Below, piece after piece: positions 1 to 48,007 of a stretch of DNA of 64,000 bases. The first letter of the stretch is position 1, and every line of letters starts with the position of its first letter. The stretch comes from Beroe forskalii (taxonomy: Eukaryota; Ctenophora; Nuda; Beroida; Beroidae), in the NCBI GenBank assembly GCA_011033025.1, contig WFMF01000307.1, positions 150,170 to 214,169 of the forward strand, written 5' to 3'. The translations under genes and the position numbers were made by a program. Under the pieces are notes generated by a model, which did not search any database, was not told the origin of the DNA, and saw nothing but the letters and a program-made list of their open reading frames with translations.

Positions 1-1785
1 CTCAGAGGAGGGCGTCCCCTGCACGTCCTTGGGTCCCTGCACTAACACGCACATCTCTCTACTCACTGCAGGAGGGGGTCCGTCAGGAGGACATAGCGTC
101 CCCCTGCACGTCCTGCACTAACACGCACATCTCTCTATACTCACTGCAGAGGAGGGGGTCCCTCAGGGAGGACATAGCGTCCCCCCTGCACGTCCTTGTG
201 TCCCTGCACTAACACGCACATCTCTCTATACTCACTGCAGAGGAGGGGTCCCTCAGGGATGACATAGCGTCCCCTGCACGTCCTTGTGTCCCTGCACTGG
301 GTCCCTCAGGGAGGACATAGCGTCCCACGCGTCCTTGTGTCCCTCTATACTCTATACTCACTGCAGAGGAGGGGGTCCCTCAGGGAGGACATAGCGTCCC
401 CCTGCACGTCCTTGTGTCCCTGCACTAACACGCACATCTCTCTATACTCACTGCAGAGGAGGGGTCCCTCAGGGAGGACATAGCGTCCCCCTGCACGTCC
501 TTGTGTCCCCTGCACTAACACGCACATCTCTATACTCACTGCAGAGGAGGGGGGTCCCTCAGGGAGGACATAGCGTCCCCCTGCACGTCCTTGTGTCCCT
601 GCACTAACACGCACATCTCTATACTCACTGCAGAGGAGGGGTCCCTCAGGGAGGACATAGCGTCCCCCTGCACGTCCTTGGGTCCCTGCACTAACACGCA
701 CATCTCTCTATACTCACTGCAGAGGAGGGGGTCCCTCAGGGAGGACATAGCGTCCCCCTGCACGTCCTTGGGTCCCTGCACTAACACGCACATCTCTCTA
801 TACTCACTGCAGAGGAGGGGGTCCCTCAGGGAGGACATAGCGTCCCCCTGCACGTCCTTGGGTCCCTGCACTAACACGCACATCTCTCTATACTCACTGC
901 AGAGGAGGGGGTCCTCAGGGAGGACATAGCGTCCCCCTGCACGTCCTTGGGTCCCTGCACTAACACGCACATCTCTCTATACTCACTGCAGAGGAGGGGT
1001 CCCTCAGGGAGGACATAGCGTCCCCCTGCACGTCCTTGGGTCCCTGCACTAACACGCACATCTCTCTATACTCACTGCAGAGGAGGGGGTCCTCAGGGAG
1101 GACATAGCGTCCCCTGCACGTCCTTGTGTCCCTGCACTAACACGCACATCTCTCTATACTCACTGCAGAGGAGGGGGTCCTCAGGGAGGACATAGCGTCC
1201 CCCTGCACGTCCTTGTGTCCCTGCACTAACACGCACATCTCTCTATACTCACTGCAGAGGAGGGGGTCCTCAGGGAGGACATAGCGTCCCCTGCACGTCC
1301 TTGGTGTCCCTGCACTAACACGCACATCTCTCTATACTCACTGCAGAGGAGGGGGTCCCTCAGGGAGGACATAGCGTCCCCCTGCACGTCCTTGTGTCCC
1401 TGCACTAACACGCACATCTCTCTATACTCACTGCAGAGGAGGGGGTCCTCAGGGAGGTCCCCCTGCACGTCCGTCCCACTAACTGCACGTCCTCACTTGG
1501 GTCCCTGCACTAACACGCACATCTCTCTATACTCACTGCAGAGGAGGGGGTCCTCAGGGAGGACATAGCGTCCCCCTGCACGTCCTTGTGTCCCTGCACT
1601 AACACGCACATCTCTCTATACTCACTGCAGAGGAGGGGGTCCCTGCAGAAGGGAGGACATAGCGTCCCCCTGCACGTCCTTGTGTCCCTGCACTAACACG
1701 CACATCTCTCTATACTCACTGCAGAGGAGGGGGTCCCTCAGGGAGGACATAGCGTCCCCCTGCACGTCCTTGGGTCCAGAGCAGG
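1..1785. repeat. 90-bp minisatellite derived from the LRRCT exon and its splice donor
   Basis: The motif ctcactgcag recurs 19 times (starts at 62, 140, 231, 357, 447, 535, 625, 713, 803, 893, 982, 1071, 1159, 1249, 1337, 1427, 1532, 1621 and 1715), mostly 88-90 bp apart. On the minus strand a 90-bp unit is 30 codons (GPKDVQGDAMSS... to ...MCVLVQ), so full units stay open. Units of 88 or 89 bp shift the frame, which explains the overlapping repetitive ORFs on both strands. The unit is about 58 bp of LRRCT exon end (GPKDVQ through the last Cys) plus 32 bp of intron starting GTGAGTATAG. The array continues past the left edge. The small ORFs inside it are repeat artefacts, not separate genes. Confidence 0.95.
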
Positions 1786-1874
1786 TGAGGGTATGTTTTA
1801 TCTGCCGAGAGAGGAGGTACTGCCGCAACCACTCCATGTAGCAGTCGCACTGCCACTTGTTGCCGTTCACATCC
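1720..1874 (-). CDS. LRR gene exon 10: LRRCT cap
   Basis: A 155-nt exon that opens with DVNGNKWQCDCYMEWLRQYL, the NxWxCDCxxxWLxxYL signature of an LRRCT cap. A third Cys (TLTCSGP) and a fourth (DPLLC) give the two expected disulfides. I place the donor at 1719, where the minus strand reads TGCA|GTGAGTATAG, so the exon ends in phase 1, unlike the upstream exons. The exon end from GPKDVQ to LLC and the donor itself are repeated about 19 times further left, so several competing donors exist and the true exon end could differ. Exons 3' of this are outside the window. Confidence 0.85.
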
Positions 1875-2149
1875 CTGAGGGAGAAATAAATACTTGAGAT
1901 AGGTCTCATCGAAACAGGAATTCAAAGACAACTCCAAAATTTTAGGCTCCAAGTTTCTTCATTTCTTAATTAATGGTGAATTATGAAATTTATCAGTGAA
2001 GTTCCAAAATCCTAGGCTCATTACTTCATTTTCTCAAAATCCTAGTAACTAAGTTTCTTGAGCGTAATTGGTTATGAAATTTCGGCTTTATATCCAGCAA
2101 ATATACGGTTTTCTGCACGTATTTGTGTAGATGCGATCACGTTACTTAC

Positions 2150-2218
2150 AACTGCTGAAGAGACATCCCAGCAAAGGTGCCCTCGTGCAGATACGACAGC
2201 TTGTTGTACGATACGTCC
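2150..2218 (-). CDS. LRR gene exon 9: leucine-rich repeat 8
   Basis: 69 nt, acceptor CTCTCAG, donor GTAAGT, phase 2. It reads DVSYNKLSYLHEGTFAGM then SLQQL. It is the last full repeat before the C-terminal cap. The 208-bp intron to exon 8 carries a 21-bp repeat (2314-2334) that recurs at 56661-56681. Confidence 0.92.
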
Positions 2219-2313
2219 CTGAGAGGTGAGATGACTTACTAATCGTCATTACATCGACGGACGTTGCCGAAGGCGCAAAGTGACGTCCAAATGTGGAACG
2301 TTGCGCCGCGCGA

Positions 2314-2334
2314 GAGGGTAGGGTAACATCCTAC
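2314..2334. repeat. Dispersed repeat core (second copy at 56661-56681)
   Basis: gagggtagggtaacatccta plus c is identical at 2314-2334 and 56661-56681. Both copies follow a GC-rich block containing gcgccg. This indicates remnants of one dispersed repeat family, here in the intron between LRR exons 8 and 9. Confidence 0.6.
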
Positions 2335-2426
2335 GAGTCATTACAATGATATTATGTCTTTTTATGTACTTTCTTACCACTTCTATTCTAATGGAAACTC
2401 AGCCCCCTGAGTATTAAATAACTCAC

Positions 2427-2498
2427 AGGGATCGGAGGAGCTTGTTGCTGGCAAGGGACTGCGGGGGTATGTTCCTGATGTAGTTGTGCGCTAATGAC
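2427..2498 (-). CDS. LRR gene exon 8: leucine-rich repeat 7
   Basis: 72 nt, acceptor ATTGCAG, donor GTGAGT, phase 2. It reads SLAHNYIRNIPPQSLASN then KLLRSL. Consensus LxxNxI at the start and LxxL at the end are both present. The intron to exon 7 is only 253 bp. Confidence 0.92.
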
Positions 2499-2751
2499 CT
2501 GCAATGAGATATGATAAATCTAGCCGGAGTTTTCTTTATTTATTGGTAGATTTGCATGCTTGCACAAGTAGCTGGCACATATTATCTTATTATGAGTGGC
2601 TCTAGCACTCAAAAACTCAACAGCAGTTACTAAAAGGGTGGCGTGTACGATACTACTTTATGATTTTTGCAAATTCAACAATTCACATTTACTTTGAAAG
2701 ACGTTCTTAAGTCATTGCTACTTAAGTAAGCTTAATTATCTAGGAACTCAC

Positions 2752-2820
2752 AGGTAACGAATGCCTTTCATTTTCCCAATGTCTGATGGTAGTTCTCTGA
2801 ATGAATTGTTTCCTAATAAC
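2752..2820 (-). CDS. LRR gene exon 7: leucine-rich repeat 6
   Basis: 69 nt (23 residues), acceptor TTTCAG, donor GTGAGT, phase 2. It reads LLGNNSFRELPSDIGKM then KGIRYL. The xLPxxIG core is the short 23-residue LRR class (as in Ras-suppressor or plant-type repeats) rather than the 24-residue AF class of the other exons. An antisense transposon-derived fragment starts within about 5 bp of this acceptor. Confidence 0.9.
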
Positions 2821-2824
2821 CTGA

Positions 2825-3223
2825 AAGAAATCACGGTTTTTAGTTCATTTCTCACACACTATCTCAGTGAATACTGACAGAGTTATTAGTTTGAAAATTA
2901 CTGAGCAGGATCGAAAACTAAAGGCTCGTCTGAAGCGCATTGCTGAGAAGACAAAAGAGGAATACCGAGACGTTATCAGTATGATGCGAGTAAAACTGTC
3001 CTTCGCACTACTGAAAAGTGTGCTCATGTCAGTGAGAGGATCCCGGGGGAAACCATCTCACAAGCGCGAAATTCCGATTTCAGAAGTTTCATTCAATCTC
3101 ATCCCAGATGGATTGACAGGGGATTTAACTTTTTTTCTTAATTTCCTTTCCCATTCACCTGCCGGGTTGATTTTTTCAGTTTTAGAATTCAAAGGGACAG
3201 AAAGTTTCGTATACCAATTTTGA
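2825..3223 (+). pseudogene. Transposon-derived coding fragment, antisense in an LRR-gene intron
   Basis: An open frame runs from 2825 (after a stop at 2822) to 3223. The part up to about 3110 looks like genuine old coding sequence: LKITEQDRKLKARLKRIAEK, then YRDVISMMRVKLSFALLKSV, then RGSRGK and ISEVSFNLIPD. The charged helix followed by RxxLSFALLKSxxxxxRGxRG resembles segments at the C-terminal ends of transposable-element proteins in invertebrates, but I cannot name the family. It has no Met at the start, no catalytic motif and no partner ORF, so it is a truncated remnant. The reading after about 3110 is probably non-coding. Confidence 0.45.
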
Positions 3224-4804
3224 AATGCATTTTATATTTTTATGAAAAATGTGGATAAATTTTTTGGCAACTGTATGACCAAAAGGGTCTTCTGAATATT
3301 CAATATATAATATTGAGCTTCAGACGAGACCTCTCACCTCAATTCCCGATCCTTTTCAATTATTTTCCCACGCCGCGCACAAATTCAAATCATACTGAGC
3401 GATAAAACTTATGTAAACTCCACATAAAAAGAAATCGCGCCTTCCATACGGTCCGCGCGCGCATTCCTGTTTTTCGCAGATTATTGTCCATCTTTTCCGC
3501 AAGTGTATCAATGAAGCAGGAGAATAATGTTTCGGCAAGTCCTCAAATTACCAGAGCATCTATTACATTAACTGACGTTGAGAACTTCTAGAATTACACC
3601 AGCTTATACCATTTGAAGTTAGGATGTATCCTTGGTACTTGATTTTCAAATGTGGCCTGTACGGTAAATTCCGGGTCCTGGAAACATGATTTTCATAAAA
3701 CACACATCTATTTCTATTTTCTCGGCGCAGTCTGAAGATACTGTAGCATTTATCTTTTGTAGCCTGTCGCAAGTAAAGAAAAGGCCTGCTCATCTTGCTC
3801 TTGATACTTTGACATAGTGGAAGTAAAATAGAGTACTCAACTACTCAGGGAGTCAGTGGTTTAGTCTCCAAAAATGTATTTGATTTGGTGTACCACATTT
3901 GGCGTTTTTCAGAAAATTCACCGAAAATCATAATTAAGTTCATAAATAAACATGTAACCTAAGACAGTTCAAATTTTCTATGCGATTACTGTACATGCTA
4001 AAATCTGGCGCATAATCATAAATACGAAGCCTGCACAATCATTCGCTCAAAAGATACCGGATAGATGATTAATTGGAGGCAGTCGCCATACACAAGAAGC
4101 AACACAGAGAAACATGTCCTACATCCCTGCAAACTTTCAGCTCATATCAGAGCGGCATATCATTATCTTCAGGTGGCAACCAATAGGCGGTTTATAGTGA
4201 CATCACCACCATGCATTAGAATAGGCAATTGACGATGTCATTGGAGAATGCTGCGCACAATAGCTCAGTACTGCTGATGTGCAGGATGAATATCTGTGAT
4301 TGAAATTAAAAGATAGAATGTACAGTGCATGTCACGAGCTCACACTCTCGAATAGTACTATCATTCTCAAGTAGGGTGGAATATAGGGAGGCTTTCAACT
4401 TTCAAGAGACTTTGGTGGCTTTCTAAAGCTCATTATAATATGTTATATATGAGCTTCGTTTATAGTTATATCCCGTTTAAACTCATGGACTATCGACAAG
4501 CAACGACAATGAGAAGAAAACGAGAACAAAAGAATCAGAAGGCTAGAATAAAGGATCTTTAAAACGTGTACTTATGGAGTTATGATAAGTAAGTGTTTTA
4601 TAGCATTGATATTACTATCAGATACAGAAGTAAGCTAATTCTCTAATCTCCCATCATGGCTCGTGTTGCCATGGAATTCTAATAATTCATATCTTCTACA
4701 ATATCGTCTAGTTATTCCTACAGCTAGAATAGTACAATCTCCATCTACACGTTGATCCATCTACAAAAATCTGAAAGTGATTAAAATCTGCAATCTTCAC
4801 TTAC
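3224..4804. other. Intron 6 remainder, no gene seen
   Basis: AT-rich intronic DNA. The only noteworthy piece is caccaataggcggt-like sequence near 4180-4200, similar to sequence near 36475-36495 and part of a scattered repeat family. The small ORFs at 3356-3538 and 3563-3793 (minus) have no recognisable features. Confidence 0.6.
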
Positions 4805-4879
4805 AGCCAGAGATTGTGTGAAGTGAGGGGAAGCAGGGCACCGTTTGTAACTTCACTCAGGTCGTTGTCCATCAAGTTC
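4805..4879 (-). CDS. LRR gene exon 6: leucine-rich repeat 5
   Basis: 75 nt (25 residues), acceptor TTTCAG, donor GTAAGT, phase 2. It reads NLMDNDLSEVTNGALLPL then TSHNLWL. One residue longer than its neighbours, which LRR arrays tolerate in the convex loop. Confidence 0.9.
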
Positions 4880-7800
4880 CTGAAAGGGGTGAAGTAAGCA
4901 TACCTGGAGGAGTCATAGATGCAGTGGAAATCCAGAGGGCATGCACAGGCGAAGACGTGTAGCCGTGTGTCTGCTCAGAAAAGTGATAATGTGCTCATAA
5001 CTTCATTGTATTATTATCAGACAGACTTTCTGCTTTATATCAGAGTTCAGAGGAAAAACAAATTGATCATTTCATTAACTCTGTGTTCACAATAAATACT
5101 ATATAAGTTGTAAATCTACCCATCCGAACAATTGATTAGATTCCTAATATTAAGTCCATGCGATTGACATTGAAATGAAATCATTTAATTAATCCTTAAA
5201 TCATTTAAATTGGATGTGGGTACTAAGTGAAACTGGAAACTACAATACACTTCGTTTCTCTTCACCACTTTGCACAAGTAATAGGTAGTTGTGGAGAAGA
5301 GTAGTTACGTAGTTAAAGTTGCGAGTTTAATTTGGTGGAACCACGCATGATTTTCCACGCGATGGGCGACCACGATATCGGCAACTCCGTTATTAATAGC
5401 CGGTGTTAATAAATCTGACAGAGTAGCGGTAAGAATAAAATAAAGTGTAATAATTCCTGGACAATTACATCACACACAACCCAAAGTTGTCGTAGGCTCA
5501 GTAGTAAAATATATTAACGTAATCGCATTAATGAGTGGTGTAAACGAGCCCCAGGGTACAATCCTGCAAATAGTTGACACACCAAACACCCTCCTGGGTA
5601 TTTGTCAAGTTCATGCCACAAACTACAGACATAGAATCACGGACAAACACACTCAAAAAAACAGGATAAACGGAAAAACAGACTCCAGACAGACAGACTC
5701 ACGGACAAACTCGCAAAGAAGGGAACAAAATTATGAAAGAGTATTACAATTTAAACAATTTAAGTACACAAGTACATTTATTCAGTCCTCAAGAACCAAG
5801 ATATTTGAAACAATAAGGATACACTCTGCCAATGTAATATTTCCTAGGTGCTTTGACATCCATAATTCACTGTTCAGAGACGTAATGACAACTTCACTCG
5901 GATACACGAACTACTTGAAATACTTACAAATAGTTGATGTTGCTTGACGGGTAGAATGCCTCCCTTGATATGGAATTTATCTGGTTACCACGCAGGTCCC
6001 TGAAATAGAACTCCATATAAAACATGAAATGAACCAAAAATCTATGAAAAACAAGTCAGTAGGTACATGACATGTAACTACTAACTCGTTTTTCATAGAT
6101 TCTAGTTTGATCAATTTCGTTTCGACTAATGATAACCATTTATTCATGAAGGACGGGAAAAGGCATTAAATTAGAAATTTTTATGGCATAAATAACTTTA
6201 TACCTACCCGTATTAAAGTATTTAGTAGGAGACTTAAACACTTAAAAGTTAATTAGACTGTTTTAAGTGGAAATCACCCGGAATTTCCTAAATTTAAATT
6301 TATTTATTTAGAATTGAACGTTTGTTTTGTAAAATTTGGCAGTGATAATTACAGACTGGTTTTAGGAAAAGAAATAAATTCGTTTCCGTTTGGCGTTCAA
6401 CACAATTTAAATAAATTACATGAAAGCTTAAGGTATAATAAATTATGGAAAATGCGTTAAAAATAAGATATAATAATAATGATATGTTGAAAATTAAAAG
6501 CAGAATTACTGTATTTTTATCTAACCTACTACAGTATCTTTTATTTACTATCTAACATACTACAGTACAGAGGTGCTTTAATATGGATCAAACATGTTTC
6601 TACAATAACTAGAAAGGAAAGTGAACAAAAACTGTAAACTCATGGATAACGTAGTATTGAAAAATAATGGCGCAAGTCTTCATAAATCTATGACAAAAGG
6701 GATACATAGTATCAATAATCATTTAAGGCCTGAAAAGTAAAAACGGTGCTTAAGGGCTATAAAGAACAAACGTTCATCATTTGGGCAGGGTGATTGTGTA
6801 GCACAAAGTGCACCTACGAAACACCCTTATCAAGTATTTTTTATCCCAGAACCACAGAACAGAAGGGCTGTACTCTGATCAGTGATCAGCCTTGTTTATG
6901 CAGAAGGCTGATTTCCATCTACCACACATTGAACCACGCATGAGTAGTCTGTGAATTTATACATACAATAAAGTATTTAAAAAGCTGAGAATCTAATTAG
7001 ACTTTGATAAAATTCATATAATTTTTGAAAAGCTCGATGTACAATTCCCCAGGAGCGCGCGTACTATATGCGAATGACAGAAAATGTACTTTTTCATAAG
7101 TTAATGTGTTAATATGTCAGAACATTTGACATTTAATATGTGTACGATGTATTTCACTCGAGGGCTCGTGCTACAGATACTTGGAATCATTTTTACATAG
7201 CTATACCACCTAATCTAACACATGAACCTAAAATATGGACCCGTCCTTATCAATTCATTAATCATTATTCATTTGTGCCGTTTGATTCCAGATTCGCCAA
7301 CTTTCAAGATTCATGTCCATAAACAACGAAGTTGTTATCTTATATACACATTTCATTAAGTCCTAAAGTGATCATCTGATCAAAATTTGCGCCGTTTTAC
7401 CAAGATTTATTACGAGGAATCACGCTAAAATGTGTTGCAGAAACAGTTAGATATACGTCATTACATTGATTATCCATCTTGAATAAGGAAACTTATCTTG
7501 TATTTTCATACATGAGGTACGCTGCATGGAGGGAACTGTTCTTTCATCAAGTATGAAATATGCGTACAAGGAAAGAGACATATAACGTGAAGACAGGCTA
7601 ACGGCTAGGAAAAGCTGGGAAGATTCGAAACAAAGCTGTGCTGCTTTGATAATGTGCCTGATAATGCGGGGTATGTGACATTCAAGATGTATCAGAAACA
7701 TTGAAATAACGTCAATCTACATATTAAAGTATTAAGGGGAAGAAGTAGTAGAAGACATTATTCTTTTGGTGGCTGCACTTCAACTGTTACAGAACTAGTG

Positions 7801-8085
7801 AACTGTTACACTTCACGGGTACAGCAGTAGATTCTAGCTTCTTATTTCTAGCTCTCACAGGACAGAAAATTAGACTCATTACCGTCAGTAACATCCGGAT
7901 ACTCTTGAAGTCACATTTACCGAAACTCATGACTTACTTTAAAACAAACTATAGAAACTATAGTATGATGTACCATTGTACCGTTATATTATATACACTC
8001 GCATAAAAAGTAGTTGTTTTAATGGAAGTAACGGGTCACATTAGAATATAATATTTTCACACTAATTCAGTGCAGTAAAACTTAC
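4880..8085. other. Introns 5 and 4 around LRR exon 5, no further gene seen
   Basis: Leaving out exon 5 (5928-5999), this is AT-rich non-coding DNA. The plus-strand ORF at 5531-5947 is rich in Asp, Ser, Arg and Thr from short acagac-type repetition, and it overlaps exon 5 on the opposite strand, so I treat it as chance. Confidence 0.55.
5928..5999 (-). CDS. LRR gene exon 5: leucine-rich repeat 4
   Basis: 72 nt, acceptor TTTCAG, donor GTAAGT, phase 2. It reads DLRGNQINSISREAFYPS then SNINYL, with the standard xLxxNxIxxIxxxAF core. Its start completes the Val codon opened by exon 4. The last residues carry Asn and Ser where Leu is usual, so the concave beta strand that follows may be less regular. 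Confidence 0.92.
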
Positions 8086-8157
8086 ACCCATTCCAAGTAA
8101 AGCAGTCCTCGGAAAACCCGGTCAGGTATTTCCTTGAGTTCGTTCTCACTCACCACC
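8086..8157 (-). CDS. LRR gene exon 4: leucine-rich repeat 3
   Basis: 72 nt, acceptor TTTTGCAG, donor GTAAGT, phase 2. It reads VVSENELKEIPDRVFRGL then LYLEWV. N and L fall at the LRR positions and the F of the VFRGL segment sits where the consensus has Phe. The codon split with exon 5 is GT|G (Val), the only junction that is not Leu. Confidence 0.92.
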
Positions 8158-10662
8158 CTGCAAAAGGGAGAAGTTTATAAAGGAGCACTCAGTTCGTTTT
8201 CATTTACCACCCTGTGTGACTGATACGGAATATAACATGTGTCATCAAGGAAAGTCTTCTGATTATTTTGATGAAACTTTCAGGATATTTGGACAACATT
8301 ATTGTGATTATTTCAAAAGAATTATATCAGAAAAAGGTTCATCAGAAGCTTTTAGAAATCATGATATAAACATGATGGGGTATCAGAACGGTCCATCAAC
8401 TCTGAACAGGCATATAGATTAGAATGACATTATGATTTGGGTGGGAGTAGATTAGAATGATATTGTCCATTGGAAATACCCCATCTCCCAATGTTACACC
8501 TTCATTTCATGGCAATTGCAGAGTAGACGTGGAGATTAGATCCCCTAATTAGAGCTCTGGATACAGGATATACACAGGCTATAATCGTTATCGTATATGG
8601 ATGAGGCCTCTATCAACTAGAACTCAAGAAATAGATACAGGGCATTATGACCAGTAGTCTGGGAATGAAGGATGACTTTATGATAAATAGACATCCTGCG
8701 CAGAAGGAATCCTCCTACAAGCTGCTGATTTGACCTGCTACAGTATTATCATGTAATGAGTGAAACACTACACAGATAACAGCTGTTTTGTGAACTTAGG
8801 GACCACCATTATCTCCCTCCGTTGCGATACTACTCCACTTAGAGTCTCAGGTTATACTGGTACTAGATCCTAATAGTTCCTTGTAACCGAGGGCAGGAGT
8901 GAGGCTTGCAACAGGAGAGCAGTGCTGGTCATGATCACAACAAAAATTCGCTAACAACTAACAACAACTAACTAACAACCAACTGTCAGGTCACGGATGG
9001 TTTCATCGCTATAAGCCAATCTCCGTTATTGAAAGACACGTTGGAGTGTTGGACGACCCTCGACCCTCGATCGGGTTCCGAATATTGGCGCTATAAGCGC
9101 CAGGCGCTATAAGCGCCAGGCGCTAACCAATGTCTTGCTGTGTCACTTCATGATCTTCCAATGAACCAGGGAGATTATAGAGCGATAAACCTCTAATCAC
9201 ACTTCACCAGAATTCCCTAGAAGACTCTGCTAGGAGGAGGCTGGAGCTTCTACATCCCTCCGGTAAATTGTGGGATATTACTGCAGTGGTTATACTGAGT
9301 GGGGTATATCATGGCAAAGGTCAGGACGGATGGATACGAGAGGGATAATTGGGGAAGCTCACTGGTGGTCTCTACAGCTATGCATGCAATAATTAGGGAA
9401 TTAGCACAATTACCATATAGTATCCGTATTAATTAGTGTGTGTAACCAAATATAATGAGGCACACTGAGCAAGATGGTGATTCCTTAGAATCGCGGCCTC
9501 TGGTGGAACTTGCGCAGATAGGAACTTGCTTACAAGCTTACAGTATCCAAACTCTGATTGATTCCTAAACTTGTGCTTCCTGAGTTCATCTGAAAAATTC
9601 ACTACGATAAACAAGAAGAACACCAACATAGGCAACTGTAATGTCCTCTGCCATATTTGAGCGCTGAGACCTCCATTTGAATTCTTGTATTAGCTCCTTT
9701 GTATTTAACGATCAACTTACATCTGCAATTGCTATGTAAGCCTACAAGTGACTCACTTTTCAGCCCAAAAGGTCAAAAGCCTTAGCCTGGCACCTATCAC
9801 CTAGTGGTACATGAGGTACTGAACGAGAATGCAGAGTAGATATGTAAGGTGCACGACTTTTCATCTTACGTCAAACACTTACCCAGGTCCCAGACCTTAA
9901 CCTTTGCTCGGAGTTTAAATGTTATGAGTAGATCAAAAGGTGTCGTGAGATGAAATGTCCGTTCCCCGATATGCATTATTACAGTTCAAGGTAGGTATTG
10001 AAGCTGGGATATGAGAGCTGTCATTATAGGGCGTGTGATGTTTTCTACCCTAACCAACATAATGGAACGATAAACTTTAAACGTCCGAGCCTATAATTGT
10101 GAGAAAGAACAATGGAGGAATATGTTGAATGCCGTTAGTAAAAGATGTTTTAATACCTTTACATTTCGCTGAAAAATTAAGCTAGGACCTTGCAAAAGCT
10201 CCCATTATGCAAGGTCCAATGAACAATAGCATTCTGAGATAGATAATACCTTCTCCAGATGTCAAGAGCATTGTTAAACTTATCAGAGCTCGAACAAGCA
10301 AACAACTGTAATTAGTTCTACAGGAACAGTAGAACACCCATTTCTAAAGGCTAAACATAGCTGGCAGCGGTCTACACTCCGACAATTTACTCAGTAGGTG
10401 TAATTTTATATTCTGAATGGGGTGAATATTCGGACTATTTTCAAGTTGAAAACAACAGGCGCTGCTGACTGAGGGGTTAAGAAAGAAGGAATATATGGTT
10501 ATGGAGTAATAGCCTCCCCATGATAACAAATTGATGAAAATTTAAAAGTAGAATTAAATGCAAATAAAGTTCAAGCTACCCCAAATACTGAAATATCATG
10601 ATCCTTGAAATTTGTTACTTCAGACGCAACATTTTGAAATGCCTGGACCCTGGAATACTCAC
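8158..10662. other. Intron 3, small palindromic tandem repeat only
   Basis: No coding sequence recognised. At 9087-9125 the self-complementary unit ggcgctataagcgcca occurs twice plus a partial copy. At about 8935-8985 there is a short aacaacta-type simple repeat. Confidence 0.55.
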
Positions 10663-10734
10663 AGTATTTTGAGGTAAGGTAGCCGTTGCAGGACTGCAGG
10701 GTCTAATGCTCTGATGTTGTTGTGTTGTAACTCT
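10663..10734 (-). CDS. LRR gene exon 3: leucine-rich repeat 2
   Basis: Exactly 72 nt between acceptor TTTCAG and donor GTGAGT, phase 2 at both ends. It reads ELQHNNIRALDPAVLQRLP followed by YLKIL, a textbook 24-residue extracellular LRR (LxxNxIxxLxxxxLxxLxxLxxL). It is the first of the closely spaced 3' exon cluster. A short ORF on the same strand (10615-10896) is only this exon read into its intron. Confidence 0.92.
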
Positions 10735-13700
10735 CTGAAAAGTAGAAATGTTTAAACATCTAGAATTAACATTAGTGATAATATAATTGAGATGGAACTG
10801 TAAAAACCACGATGGTGAATCAACCATAAAGGTCAGATGGGCCATGTTAAAGTTGTGTCTATCCCAGAATAGCAATGGGTGGGGTTGACATAACACATAG
10901 CTGACGTCATAGGAAGATTGGATAGAACACGTAATAAGTTCCGTAGCTCCGGATGACTCATGAAATACATCACAGCTATTATAACACAGTTTTCAGTAAC
11001 TACCTCATGATGAAGATTAATACGAATCCGATTACATTTAGAATCCTCTGACATTTAGCATCATCATATTATGTGGATAATCCGGGATAATAGTAGCAAA
11101 TATTATATATGCAGTATGCGACGGCAAAGATCGTGTTTGCGTCATTAATTCACGATTCCCTTTCCTAATTATGACGGCAGTCTACTAAATACTGAAGTGT
11201 CTGATTACTCGCGTGATGTGTTTATCATAAAACAAGGATAATAGGGAATAATTACAGGTCATAATAATTATAGCTAATGAATTTCAAATTGAATCATAAT
11301 TATCACAATATAGCTTAAATTGAGCAGTGGCCAATGCTGACAAATTTAATTAGATTCGGTGTACTCGAGTGAATGGAACATTGGATTATTAATAAATGGA
11401 ATGCGGATGAAAATTAAAATTTGAATAATCAAAAATGAATTACTGGGGAAAAAGGGTAATAAATTTGCCCAAATTTGTCGGTATTTTGAAGAGGGCGAAA
11501 GTTGGTCAGTCGGTAAGTTCATGATTTGAAGGAGTCTAGCTGACTCAGGCTGTTGAGTGTGTTATGTAAAATATGCAGCTAATCAGAGACCCTCAATCAA
11601 TTGAAATAATCCGTCAATCCGAGCTTATGTGAAAGTTCGCCGCTCTAAAGGCACAATGTACTTGGGGCCAAGATGAGGATCTATTCGACAGAAAGACGGC
11701 TCTGTAAATACTCAAATAGCTGCTGATCCCGTATTGCATGTCTGATAGGCAGAGCTCTGGGAAGTGACGCACTTCCTAACAGCCTGATAACAATGTCCAT
11801 CTATTGTGGCGCTCGCCGACTGATACTTCACAGATCACTGGTATCACTCAGTCCCTGCAAACACAGGTATCTCCTGCCATGTCTAGCCCTTCCATATTAA
11901 CGTCACCGAACTGCAGTTACTGCACTGCCATTCATGATTTTTGCAGCACTTTCATGAAAAGAGCAGTATTTATTTGACCCGCAAGTACTTGAAAGGTTTT
12001 TACACTAGCTTCAACATTTTGCAATATTGTGACAGGTGACACATTATTCGATGACCTGTGAGAAGGTTAAACATGCACTCAGTAGCACCTTGTTTTAACA
12101 TTTTGACGTTGTTTCCTTTCTTTTCGTACCAGCTGAAGACAGGAGATTTAGTATATAGCACATAATTATAGGCCTTGTAGACACAGAATTCCAGTATAGG
12201 TCATACGCAAGTCATGTTTACAGCTCTGGAAGTCATGTTTAAAGCTCTGGAAGTCTTACTGGGTTTACAGGGCCACCCATTCCCCATACTGGCATTTCCA
12301 TAGAACATTCGAGGAATCGGAGGTATTCTAACATTCTAATACCGCGTTATTCTGACTTCCAAAGAGCTCAAATCCTGACTACAATTCATTGAACGGAGTA
12401 TTTTGAATAAAATTTAATGCCAGTATTATGATCTATTATGATGCTGTTGCTGTCTAACAAAGCAGGGCCGCAGGTCAACAAGTAATCGTTTTACTGATAA
12501 GCTTACACGTACCATTCCCCTGAGAATTGAAAGGTGATGCACTTTGCCTTGTCATTACAAGAGAGCATCGGTTCTTTGTGTGACAAGGCACAGTAGTAAA
12601 TTGAAACGTGCATCTGTCTGACTTGATCCTCCATGAAAGTGTAACAACTTCGACTTTCTTTACCATTGACACGGAATTGTTTGCACAGTAGCAACATTCA
12701 GATACCATGAGCTAATCGTCTTTAGTCGCCTCTCAAACTGCAACCCTTGTTCCACTAGGAGCAGAGTACCGCTTGAAAAGAGTTCCATTCTGTGTACTTG
12801 GTGCCCAAGTCACTACTTACTACTCATTATAAATCAGTATTTCTATTAGTCTATTCCGCTCGATCTAGGCTGCTCTAACCCGTAGTAATACCTAGTTGAT
12901 ATCTGGATGTAAACCTGATATGAATCAGATCATTAGCCGCCTTCCTCCAGCCAGGAGATACCAGCAGCTGCCCATCAACTCACTACTCAGCAGCCTGATA
13001 ATGACTTCACTCTCCACTACCTGTTCCAGGTGCACGTCCCATGGAGGTATACACCTGTGACAGGACCCTCCAATATCTCAGATCTTTCTCCATCTGAGCT
13101 CTCTCTCATTACGTATATATTGTAATGCTAATATCCTCCTTATCTGGCGAATCCCATGTACTCCGGCACAGGAGTTAGGAGGGTTCCCCCTCATCAGCTG
13201 AATAGGTTAACTCATGATAATGACGTCACTCCCCCTACCTATACCTCTCTACAGAATCTATACTCCTCTGCAGAATCTACACGTCCTGAGATCCCAGGAG
13301 TCCTGGCGACGTTGTTACAGGCTAGGTACACGTCTTGTGTAGAAGTGCGTGGGGAGACTCGGGCTATATCGGGATGTGGTTTATCCTGGGGTTACACTTC
13401 TGTGGTTACAGTTCCTGAATGAAGTTGTGGCCAGCAGATCAGGACCAATTAAAGCTGAAAACGCTCATTCCCGGGGACTAATGACAGCGAGCCTGGTGGT
13501 TGGCCGTGCGTTACCAAAATGTCATTTATCCGTTGTGGGGAAGAATGATAAATATTCATGGGGAGTGCTGTGGTTATAGTTCCCAGGAGGAATGTCGGGG
13601 TGGCGCCGACCAAACACTCACATCCCCTGAAACATCTCAATACATGGACAGTGGAGGGCACAGAGGTACATTCGGGGCAGTTATTCAAGTGTATGCTGTG

Positions 13701-38894: not shown

Positions 38895-40449
38895 CCCTTC
38901 TCAAGGAACACTTACCCCAGGGAAATTTACAATTGCAAATACTGTATGAAAATTTTATCAAATTTCATGTTTTTACGTTTTATGGTAAAGCACAAATCTT
39001 ATTTTGGGTGAAAGCGGGGTGATTTAATATCAGTATAAAATTTACGTCCGGACTATGGTCATGAAGTATAAATTTTTTGTGCTAAATGAAATTCAAACTC
39101 TTCTCGGGAAAATATTATAGACTGCATTTTCATCAATAGTTATTTTTCGGAGAAAACCAATGTTCATTATTCAATCATTGCATAATTATGATGTTAAGAT
39201 ATCCCAGAAAATTTTGAGCTATAGAAATTTCAGTAATAAGTAAACTTTGTACTTTTTAAATGTCAATTTGCAATTGCTTTCGGTTTAAAAATCACACCTG
39301 TCCTACTTGAGTAATTTCCTTTGTTATAATTCACACAGTACCATTATTACTTTATTACTATTAGGATTAAAATTGTGCGTGTCAGATTGATATTATACCT
39401 TTCAAAGTAGTGTCCTTCGATGATCAAAATATTAAACTTCATTTTATCAAACTGGATAGTATCCCTCAATACAGAACATTAATTACATGCTCATGAAACC
39501 ACCAATTTTATTTAACTGGTGTTTTAGCCCTTCTTTTTACCACCACAGACTGTCGCAAACATGCACAGCTTTTCAAACAAGGTCTTAAACAACGTGAATC
39601 ATTCACGGTGCAAGTGAAAGGTTTATTATTGTCTATCCTGGGGAATTTACAAACTCTAATCTGAATATACAGTCGTTTAAACGTGCTTTTGATGACGGAA
39701 CTCTTGCTGACTTTTAAGGTTTTCAACAGCGTTTTATATCTTGAGTTATCGGGTTTCTACAGGTACTATAATTAGGTCATTTTAACTTTCCACAGACCTG
39801 GATATATACGAGCATTTCAATATTTTTCAAGAAGCCGGGCGCAGGACCCGGTTAAAAGTATTACTAATGCGAGCAGTATGTTTGGTAGCTATCTTTACAT
39901 GGAGAAATAGTGCATCGCTAACCCAAATGCCGGTCCTAAAGTCCTGACTTTGGAGTTTAGGGTGTGCTATTAGATGCGAACATGAGTGATGTGCGGCCTG
40001 AAATCATTCAACTAAATATTACATCTTCCCTCCGTGATAGGTATTTTAATATTTCTAAATGTAATTTCCGCACACCCCACCCTGAATCCCCATCAAGTGG
40101 TTTCTAGAGAAGTGGCGCTCCTAATCTAGCGAGATGTGGGGTTTATAGAGGCCAGAGGGGTTTATAGAGGGGTTTATAGAATAAAGAGGGTTCTCAGCTC
40201 ACTGAGCGGACCTCGGTGGCGTGTTGCATAATCACTGGGTGAAGGACAATGCTATTTACTGTAATTAGCATTATCCCTACATTAGCTATAGCTAATCGCC
40301 CAATTGTCCGGTAGCTTCACTACGAAGCCAGCTTGTGTATGTATGTAAGTAAGCCTATGTGCAGCCTAATCAGTGTTTGATGAGTGTGTTCGATAACCTT
40401 TGATGCCCAGTCTCATACCCGGGGAGCTGAAGACCACGTGTCTCTGACA
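38895..40449. other. Intron 1, no gene recognised
   Basis: AT-rich non-coding sequence. At 39828-39858 a short agccgggcgcaggacccggtt piece resembles the ccggttaaa words of the 31203-31651 element. Confidence 0.5.
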
Positions 40450-41060
40450 CTGAATGCTCGCTGAATGTCCACTGAATGTCCAGTGCCATCTGAATGTCCA
40501 CTGAATGTCCACTGAATGTCCACTGAATGTCCACTGAATGTCCACTGAATGCACACTGAATTCCCACTGAATGCCCACTGAATGTCCACTGAATGTCCAC
40601 TGAATTTCCACTGAATGCACACTGAATTCCCACTGAATGCCCACTAAATGTCCACTGAATGTCCACTGAATGTCCACTGAATGTCTACTGAATGTCCACT
40701 GAATGTCCACTGAATGTCCACTGAATGCACACTGAATTCCCACTGAATGCCCACTGAATGTCCACTGAATGTCCACTGAATGTCCACTGAATGCACACTG
40801 AATTCCCACTGAATGCCCACTAAATGTCCACTGAATGTCCACTGAATGTCCACTGAATGTCTACTGAATTTCCACTGAATGTCTACTGAATGCCCAGTGA
40901 ATGCCCAGTGAATACCCACTGAATGCCCACTTAATGTCCACTGAATGTCCACTGAATGTCCACTGAATGTCCACTGAATTTCCACTGAATGTCTACTGCC
41001 CAGTGAATGCCCAGTGAATGCCCACTGAATGCCCACTGGATGCCCAGTTTGCCCACTGAT
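40450..41060. repeat. 11-bp minisatellite (about 55 copies)
   Basis: The unit is actgaatgtcc, with variants tgcac, ttccc and tgccc in a higher-order pattern (gcacactgaattcccactgaa recurs at about 40551, 40615, 40727 and 40793). Because 11 is not a multiple of 3 and the unit has no minus-strand stop, all three minus frames stay open and give the same 11-residue repeat (FSGHSVDIQWT). Those ORFs of up to 197 codons are artefacts of the repeat. Confidence 0.95.
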
Positions 41061-45480: not shown

Positions 45481-48007
45481 GCAAGTAATATATCTACCCT
45501 AAAGAAGCGCTACTCATCTCACAGATCTGGTTTACGCACTGGAAATGAGCCCAAGCACCTTCTCCATCACTTCACTCACGTACACAAGCCGTCTGATATG
45601 ATTATCAAGCCATTGGCATTCGTTGACGACGGTGCGAGTATTAAAGAGTTGGAGAACGATTACATATTAAAATTAAATACGTTATATCCGTACGGCTTGA
45701 ATGACCGTTTAGAAAAGCCACAATATTTAGATGCCCAGGCTACGTTTAATGATAATGGCTGTATTTATAAACTATTCCCTAAATTAACAAATACAAATAG
45801 TAGTAGAAAACGTGGCAGTAAAGTAGAAAGAAATGATAGAATTTTTGATGCGAAGTTAACTTACATGGATATTAAATGGCAATATGATTTCGGTAATTTA
45901 TCGTATATTCGGTCAAAAATAGCTTCGTTAAACATAGAGAAGTGCAATCTTTTAGGTAGTTATTGTATTGCTAAACGGGCTGAATTGGGTGCTAATCATA
46001 GACTTCTTGATATTGTTATTGATTTATGTAATCATTATCGATATAGATCTCTAGATTTCAAAGATTTTCTAGATAAGCATATCAGAAAAGATGACGATTT
46101 TGATAGTGAATTTATACCGATTTTATTAAAACATAAAAATATTGATAGTATTAGGCTAAATAAGATATTTAATTCTAATTTTTCGCATTTTCCAGCCGAT
46201 AAATTAAGTAGAAAATACCAAAAGGACGAATTTAGACATGTAGTATGCTATAGATATAAGAAGCCTATCAGAAATAGCGTTTTGAATTATTTTAGTGTAT
46301 TTACAGATACTACAGATTTGAATGATATTGATTGTTGCTGTAAAGATTATTCTAGTTTTATAGATCATAATGTAGGTCATGTTTTAACAGGTAATTTAAA
46401 AATCATTGAAAATAGAAAATTGCGCAATTTATTATGTAAAGGAACTAAATTCATAGAAACGTTATATTGTAGTAGTGATAACATAGTTAAAAGCATTAAG
46501 AGAGATATTGAGAGTTATATTAGTAAAATTTGTATTAAACATAGCGTAGCGAAATCTTATTTTGAAACTTGGAAAAATAATGTAATTGAAGATATTGATA
46601 AATTTATTTCTTCAGAAAGTATAAATTTTAAAGGACGTAGGGAATCATTAATTTTAAAAAATAAAATATTTTGGGAAGATTTTCAGAGTAAATTTGTTTT
46701 AGCTCCAGTAGATAAAGCAGGTAATAATGTAAGTATTATTTGTAAGAAATATTACGTTGAAAATATTTTAAATGAATTGCAGAGCACTGACACTTACGAA
46801 CAGTGTGATGATAGTGAGAGTGATTTAATCAATGAACATGTAGAATTTTGTAAGAAATATGGTATTGAAGTAGACGAAAGTAGTAAGAAACTCCCTAGTT
46901 TTTATATGATGCCAAAATTTCATAAATCTCCAGTTGGTAGTAGATATATTGCGGCATCATGCCGTTCCTCACTTAAATTATTAGCTAAAATATTATCACC
47001 AATATTAAAAGATATTCAGATTAATTGTAAACGTAAAGTCAACTATGAGTTCAAATTCAGAAACACTAGCGGTTATTGGATAGCTGATAACAACTTTAAA
47101 TTACGTAAAGATCTTGAAATGCTAAGTAATTGTAATTCAGGGAATCGTATTGATTGTTTTGATTTTAAGACTCTTTATACAAATATCCCGCATAATGATC
47201 TATTAGAAAAGATATTTAGTTTAATAGATACTACTTTTGAATTGAAAGAACGTGACTTTGTTAATGTTAGTGATAGTTTGAATAATGTCTCTTGGTCGAA
47301 AATCCAAGCATTCTAGAATGAAGTATAGTTATAGTAAAGACGAAGTTAAGACCTTATTGAAGTATTTAATCGACAATATATATATTAAATTTAAAGGTAA
47401 AGTATATAAACAGAATATAGGTGTACCGATGGGGTGCGATTGTGCTCCGTTCTTAGCTAATTTGTATTTGTTTTGGTATGAATATCAGTATATTAAAGAT
47501 TTAGATTCAGTAAACCATAATAGTAAAGTGTATTTTAAATATTGTAGTAGATACATAGATGACTTATGCGTTCCGAATGGTGTGAAAGACTTTGTAAATG
47601 TAGCAAAAGTATTTATCCTGATGCTTTGGTTTTAGAAAAAACTAACGAAAGTAGTTTAAATACGACATTTTAGATCTGAATGTAACTATTGAAAATAAAA
47701 AGTTTTGTACTAAGTTATATGATAAAAGGGCAGATTTTAGTTTTAATGTAATATCTATGCCTAATTTAAAATCGAATGTGCCAAAGAGGCAAATGTATGG
47801 TATTTTTTATTCTCAGTTATTCAGATTATGTCACGCAAATTCGTCTCTAGAAGGCTTTGTATCTGATGTTAAATTATTGGTTAACAAATTAAGTAAGCAG
47901 AATTTTGAAAATGTGTATTATTAAGTTTTATTAAGAAGTTTATTAATAGAAATCATCCGTGCGTATTTAAATTCTGGTCGACAATTAAGATACAAATGTT
48001 TATTTGA
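45481..48007 (+). pseudogene. Penelope-like element: GIY-YIG remnant plus reverse transcriptase, frameshifted
   Basis: The frame is open from 45481 (after a stop at 45478) to 47316. Its start, LKKRYSSHRSGLRTGNEPKH, looks like the tail of a GIY-YIG nuclease, followed by KLNTLYPYGLNDRL. Reverse transcriptase signs follow: APVDKAGNNVSI, FYMMPKFHKSPVGSRYIA, motif A FDFKTLYTNIPHNDLL, then in another frame GVPMGCDCAPFLANLY and motif C YIDDL (about 47556). The frame shifts near 47300, 47610 and 47660, and again after a stop at 47922. C-terminal pieces (PKRQMYGIFYSQLFRLCHA, then NRNHPCVFKFWSTIK) persist to about 48007. Order nuclease then RT matches the N-terminal GIY-YIG Penelope-like groups. It is inactive, AT-rich, and sits in sense-opposite orientation in LRR intron 1. 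Confidence 0.82.

Follow-up and report, generated by a model that had tools for sequence, protein, structure and literature searches.

What becomes of a gene when the end of one of its exons, together with the splice donor behind it, is multiplied many times inside the following intron? This question is raised by a 64,000-nucleotide stretch of the Beroe forskalii genome (contig WFMF01000307.1, positions 150,170 to 214,169; hereafter the window). A gene on its minus strand encodes leucine-rich repeats (LRRs), an LRRCT-type domain and immunoglobulin (Ig) domains, and the end of its LRRCT exon recurs in an array of 90-bp units. Our analyses indicate that this array is probably a young minisatellite within the intron, a lancelet-type 'mirage', whose units carry unused decoy donors while the first donor is the one used.

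The array runs head-to-tail on the minus strand from the LRRCT exon to contig position 149310 (L002 9141). It totals approximately 2.64 kb, of which about 0.86 kb lies outside the window, past window position 1. In an alignment of 29 units, the 90-bp consensus consists of 58 bp of exon end followed by 32 bp of intron starting GTGAGTATAG, and a single base separates the 58-bp part from the true exon end. This bears out the central claim of the initial annotation, that the LRRCT exon end was amplified in tandem along with its donor. The annotation's figure of about 19 donors is correct for window positions 1-1777, where we found 19 CTCACTGCAG junctions (18 of them as CTATACTCAC), but the array runs beyond the window's start and has 30 TGCA/GTG junctions in total (slash, exon-intron boundary), true donor included, with GTGAGTA in 28 of them. 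As in a mirage, the tandem unit spans an exon-intron boundary and carries a splice signal. Tandem Repeats Finder (TRF) reported a row of period 89 at window 350-1457 (12.4 copies, 96% matches) and also a 356-bp higher-order row with a score of 2486. When the intron stretch of the unit was searched against the 216-Mb, 1134-contig assembly with up to two mismatches, all 20 matches fell in the array, a count that is a lower bound for repeats. Donor words were likewise confined to rows of the LRRCT array in a survey of 104 kb (35 TRF rows of period at least 20), and no other splice-donor minisatellite was seen in this small sample, which was scored with one strict donor pattern and no shuffled control.

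Comparison of the units speaks to the age of the array. The 29 units are 48 to 126 bp long, and five are identical to the consensus. They were cut at CTGCA/GTG, which leaves copies without the junction uncounted and favours kept junctions; units 3 (105 bp) and 16 (126 bp) contain remnants of junction-lost copies. Base-by-base comparison covered 24 of the 29 units (84-94 bp; those of 105, 126, 78, 81 and 48 bp were left out) and yielded 9 substitutions, 32 deleted bases and 10 inserted bases. Substitutions in the exon part occurred at a single C/A site (seven). Because substitutions between units are rare, the array is young or strongly homogenised, and the combination of few substitutions with many indels in these 24 units fits a young array under no constraint on frame. 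Unusual single-strand structure was not convincing as a cause of amplification (z of -0.79 for DNA and -1.53 for RNA), and a search of Rfam with window 1-12000 returned no matches.

The initial annotation had gone further and suggested that skipping of upstream donors could let in-frame units lengthen the receptor, each by about 30 residues, making the array a coding variable number tandem repeat. The 90-bp unit is indeed open in one frame (GPKDVQGDAMSSLRDPLLCSEYREMCVLVQ), and the longest open reading frame listed for the array reaches 208 aa, mostly outside the window. However, when the exon frame is read through past the first donor, it ends after 83 codons at a stop where the intron part of the second repeat begins. 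Only donors 1 and 2 lie ahead of this stop, and donor 2 leads into the next exon out of frame. Further, 17 of the 29 units have a length that is not divisible by three (remainder 0, 2 and 1 in 12, 9 and 8 units, respectively). For the next exon we considered three candidate acceptors, and pairing these with all 30 junctions gave 90 joins. A single one was open with matching phase; it links donor 1 (window 1719) with the exon-proximal acceptor and has a product reading ...SLRDPLLC-IVPNPLSQDGEALEAQGNRY.... Whichever of the three acceptors was used, none of the 29 alternative donors kept the frame open as far as the Ig exon. Given the read-through stop and these closed joins, protein extension by array units fails in this assembly, and we regard a coding repeat as extremely improbable.

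We propose that the 3′ end of the LRRCT exon was duplicated together with its splice donor as a seed, and that slippage or unequal exchange then amplified it inside the following intron. The spliceosome would use the first donor, presumably by way of exon definition, to give a 155-nt exon, and the whole array (approximately 2.6 kb) would be removed as intron. The other 29 junctions would then be cryptic donors that yield hardly any product or none, and transcripts made from them are predicted to be truncated or shifted.

The far end of the same intron is repetitive as well. Its acceptor lies in a perfect 43-bp x2.1 tandem duplication (L002 8937-9028), whose unit holds 26 bp of intron ending in CCTGTAG and 17 bp of exon, so that both ends of one intron are tandemly duplicated. 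Arrays of this class are already known from lancelet mirages and the human IFI6 minisatellite, and the array described here is a further case. Canestro et al. (2002), on Adh, is the work cited for the term 'mirage', and Turri et al. (1995) are said to have described the minisatellite with multiple splice donors in IFI6 (G1P3, 6-16).

Amphioxus mirages are described in Adh3, the globins BflGb6 and BflGb9, TnC and PGBD5 (PMC3902484), and reportedly leave regular splicing undisturbed (PMC3087553, PMC3902484). The two haplotypes of BflGb6 carry 6 and 3 units, each 150-160 bp long, whereas our array comprises 29 units of roughly 90 bp. In lancelet globin genes both 5′ and 3′ boundaries were found duplicated; we name the duplication of both ends of one intron as a difference of our locus from the amphioxus mirages. 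Human IFI6 resembles our locus in that the repeat units of both carry splice donors. In IFI6, two downstream units act as donors, resulting in three mRNA species (PMC4526556), whereas none of the 29 downstream donors here keeps the frame. Minisatellites at exon-intron boundaries in human segmental duplications have been associated with cryptic splice sites and with the formation of introns (PMC2812944). Those repeats average 30-bp units x4 and lie in recently duplicated genes; here, queries with the LRRCT and the second Ig domain (Ig2) match one locus only.

A model of intron gain of this type has been proposed for lancelet mirages, and the array could in the same spirit serve as a nursery of new exons, its segments being included as cassettes from TTAGTGCAG to a later donor, such as a 57-nt in-frame cassette (RTQGRAGGRYVLPEDPLLC). 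Among 133 cassette choices under 500 nt entering immediately after TTAGTGCAG, 15 were open into the Ig exon, seven of them of 57 nt. The other 118 were closed, however, and the acceptor appeared by eye to have no pyrimidine tract. We therefore consider exonisation very unlikely.

Several observations weigh against a minisatellite of unused decoys, and the first concern the donors themselves. A stretch of 16 bases, TCTGCA/GTGAGTATAG, is common to 27 of the 30 junctions, true donor included, so nothing local singles out the first donor. Over all 29 units, departure from consensus is lower in the intron part (3.6%) than in the exon part (7.3%), a contrast that could be read as constraint; we attribute it to the rearranged units, although no other figure points so clearly in this direction. 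The contrast would fit a regulatory cluster in which the extra donors bind U1 and influence exon definition, how fast splicing proceeds or which sites it chooses, copy number acting as a dial, in an IFI6-like or enhancer-like manner. Retention of GTGAGTA at the great majority of junctions agrees with this idea, although that count is biased upward by cutting the units at the junction, and the downstream donors of IFI6 provide a precedent. In contrast, donor-specific conservation was sought and not found in the 24 compared units, in which the 8 nt of the donor hold 4 changes versus 3.7 for random unit positions (P=0.65). The youth of the array suffices to explain donor retention, and the amphioxus mirages are reportedly harmless to splicing. 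Taken together, a regulatory role seems unlikely.

The remaining points of this kind concern the Ig exon and the assembly. Of the 90 I-set positions, the next exon matches 36-76 (E 0.026, below cut-off), and its coding capacity seems limited to the C-terminal half of an Ig domain. Inspection by eye of the 145-190 bp that separate the array from the acceptor did not reveal the first half of this domain (Ig1). The lineage may have lost this half, or mis-assembly may be hiding it, and if the array is mis-assembled the outcome of the frame tests would change. Homopolymer runs hold 15 of the 32 deleted bases, so some of the indels between units may be sequencing errors. The missing half-exon and the homopolymer indels could both reflect an assembly artefact or an incorrect number of copies, which might conceal the first half of Ig1, and a lancelet mirage is reported to have been wrongly assembled in a draft genome. 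On the other hand, the exon-side flank of the array has a single match in the assembly, the array stretch is free of N, and the interspersed C/A variants and differently rearranged units are unlike simple stutter. We judge an artefact improbable, and it would be compatible with an intronic mirage spliced from its first donor.

If such a mirage is what the locus holds, many equal donors downstream of the true one amount to a natural experiment on donor choice by the spliceosome, and the array is likewise one on the making of introns by tandem duplication. Since it looks young and is long, RNA and population data could address both questions directly. A bolder interpretation, to which we give little credence, is that this large donor-bearing mirage, perhaps outside lancelets and with both intron ends duplicated, shows intron and exon birth at an early stage, its copy number tuning splicing or feeding in-frame 57-nt Cys-bearing cassettes into the LRR-Ig protein.

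The host gene has one repeat per exon, with seven LRR exons followed by the LRRCT exon, and all eight exons in the window are preceded by AG and followed by GT (Table 1). Pfam analysis of the joined exons identified LRRs with a downstream Ig, as in LRR-LRRCT-Ig proteins of the LRIG/LINGO/FLRT-like kind (LRR_8, 1.3e-47; I-set, 1.2e-8, the latter in the second Ig). The LRRCT assignment is based on the Cys pattern as seen by eye and on Protein Data Bank (PDB) matches covering the domain; the 51-aa LRRCT piece alone matched no Pfam family. Among the best 60 of 338 PDB matches (E <=0.001) to the LRR-LRRCT part, LRRTM and FLRT2/3 align over the LRRCT. Because titin Ig domains are the best PDB matches of the LRRCT-Ig stretch (1.5e-12), followed by FLRT2/3 and LRIG1, no orthologue was assigned. 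The protein is at most a putative receptor, given that the one Cys pattern tried for an LRRNT picked out none. Inspection by eye recognised neither a tyrosine-kinase region nor any other C-terminal region. Among the best candidates scored, no paralogue with the ancestral intron was found: the LRRCT query matched its own exon and the array only (20 matches, E up to 1), the Ig2 query matched its two exons only (2 matches, E up to 0.01), and LRR matches on other contigs had 25-42% identity. Downstream of the last recognised exon, L002 1176-1967 holds an 18-bp x 44 array with minus-strand open stretches (LLGDTW repeats).

Table 1. Positions of the gene's exons and of the donor array (window positions unless marked L002)
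Feature	Position	Strand	Remarks
LRR exon, 72 bp, most upstream recognised	10663..10734	(-)	
LRR exon, 72 bp	8086..8157	(-)	
LRR exon, 72 bp	5928..5999	(-)	borders, LRR match
LRR exon, 75 bp	4805..4879	(-)	borders, LRR match
LRR exon, 69 bp	2752..2820	(-)	borders, LRR match
LRR exon, 72 bp	2427..2498	(-)	borders, LRR match
LRR exon, 69 bp	2150..2218	(-)	borders, LRR match
LRRCT exon, 155 bp	1720..1874	(-)	last 58 bp (1777-1720) are the repeat source; phase 1 end after fourth Cys (...DPLLC)
True splice donor GTGAGTATAG and 32-bp intron part of first unit	1688..1719	(-)	
Window part of 90-bp tandem array	1..1719	(-)	continues to L002 9141 (contig position 149310)
Exon after array	L002 8953-8768	(-)	apparent second half of Ig domain
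Second Ig domain, two exons	L002 3187-3043 and 2760-2585	(-)	

Other features were noted nearby. An 11-bp tandem array (CACTGAATGTC x 55) at window 40448-41046 is overlapped by a 198-codon open frame on the minus strand. At window 45481-47316 (+) there is a 611-aa open frame without a Pfam match above cut-off, which by eye resembles a Penelope-like retroelement whose nuclease-like part is N-terminal, ahead of the reverse transcriptase (permuted order). The downstream neighbours of the LRR gene on the minus strand (L004-L005) resemble, by eye, Pelota, a KH-domain (hnRNP K-like) gene and RBM42.
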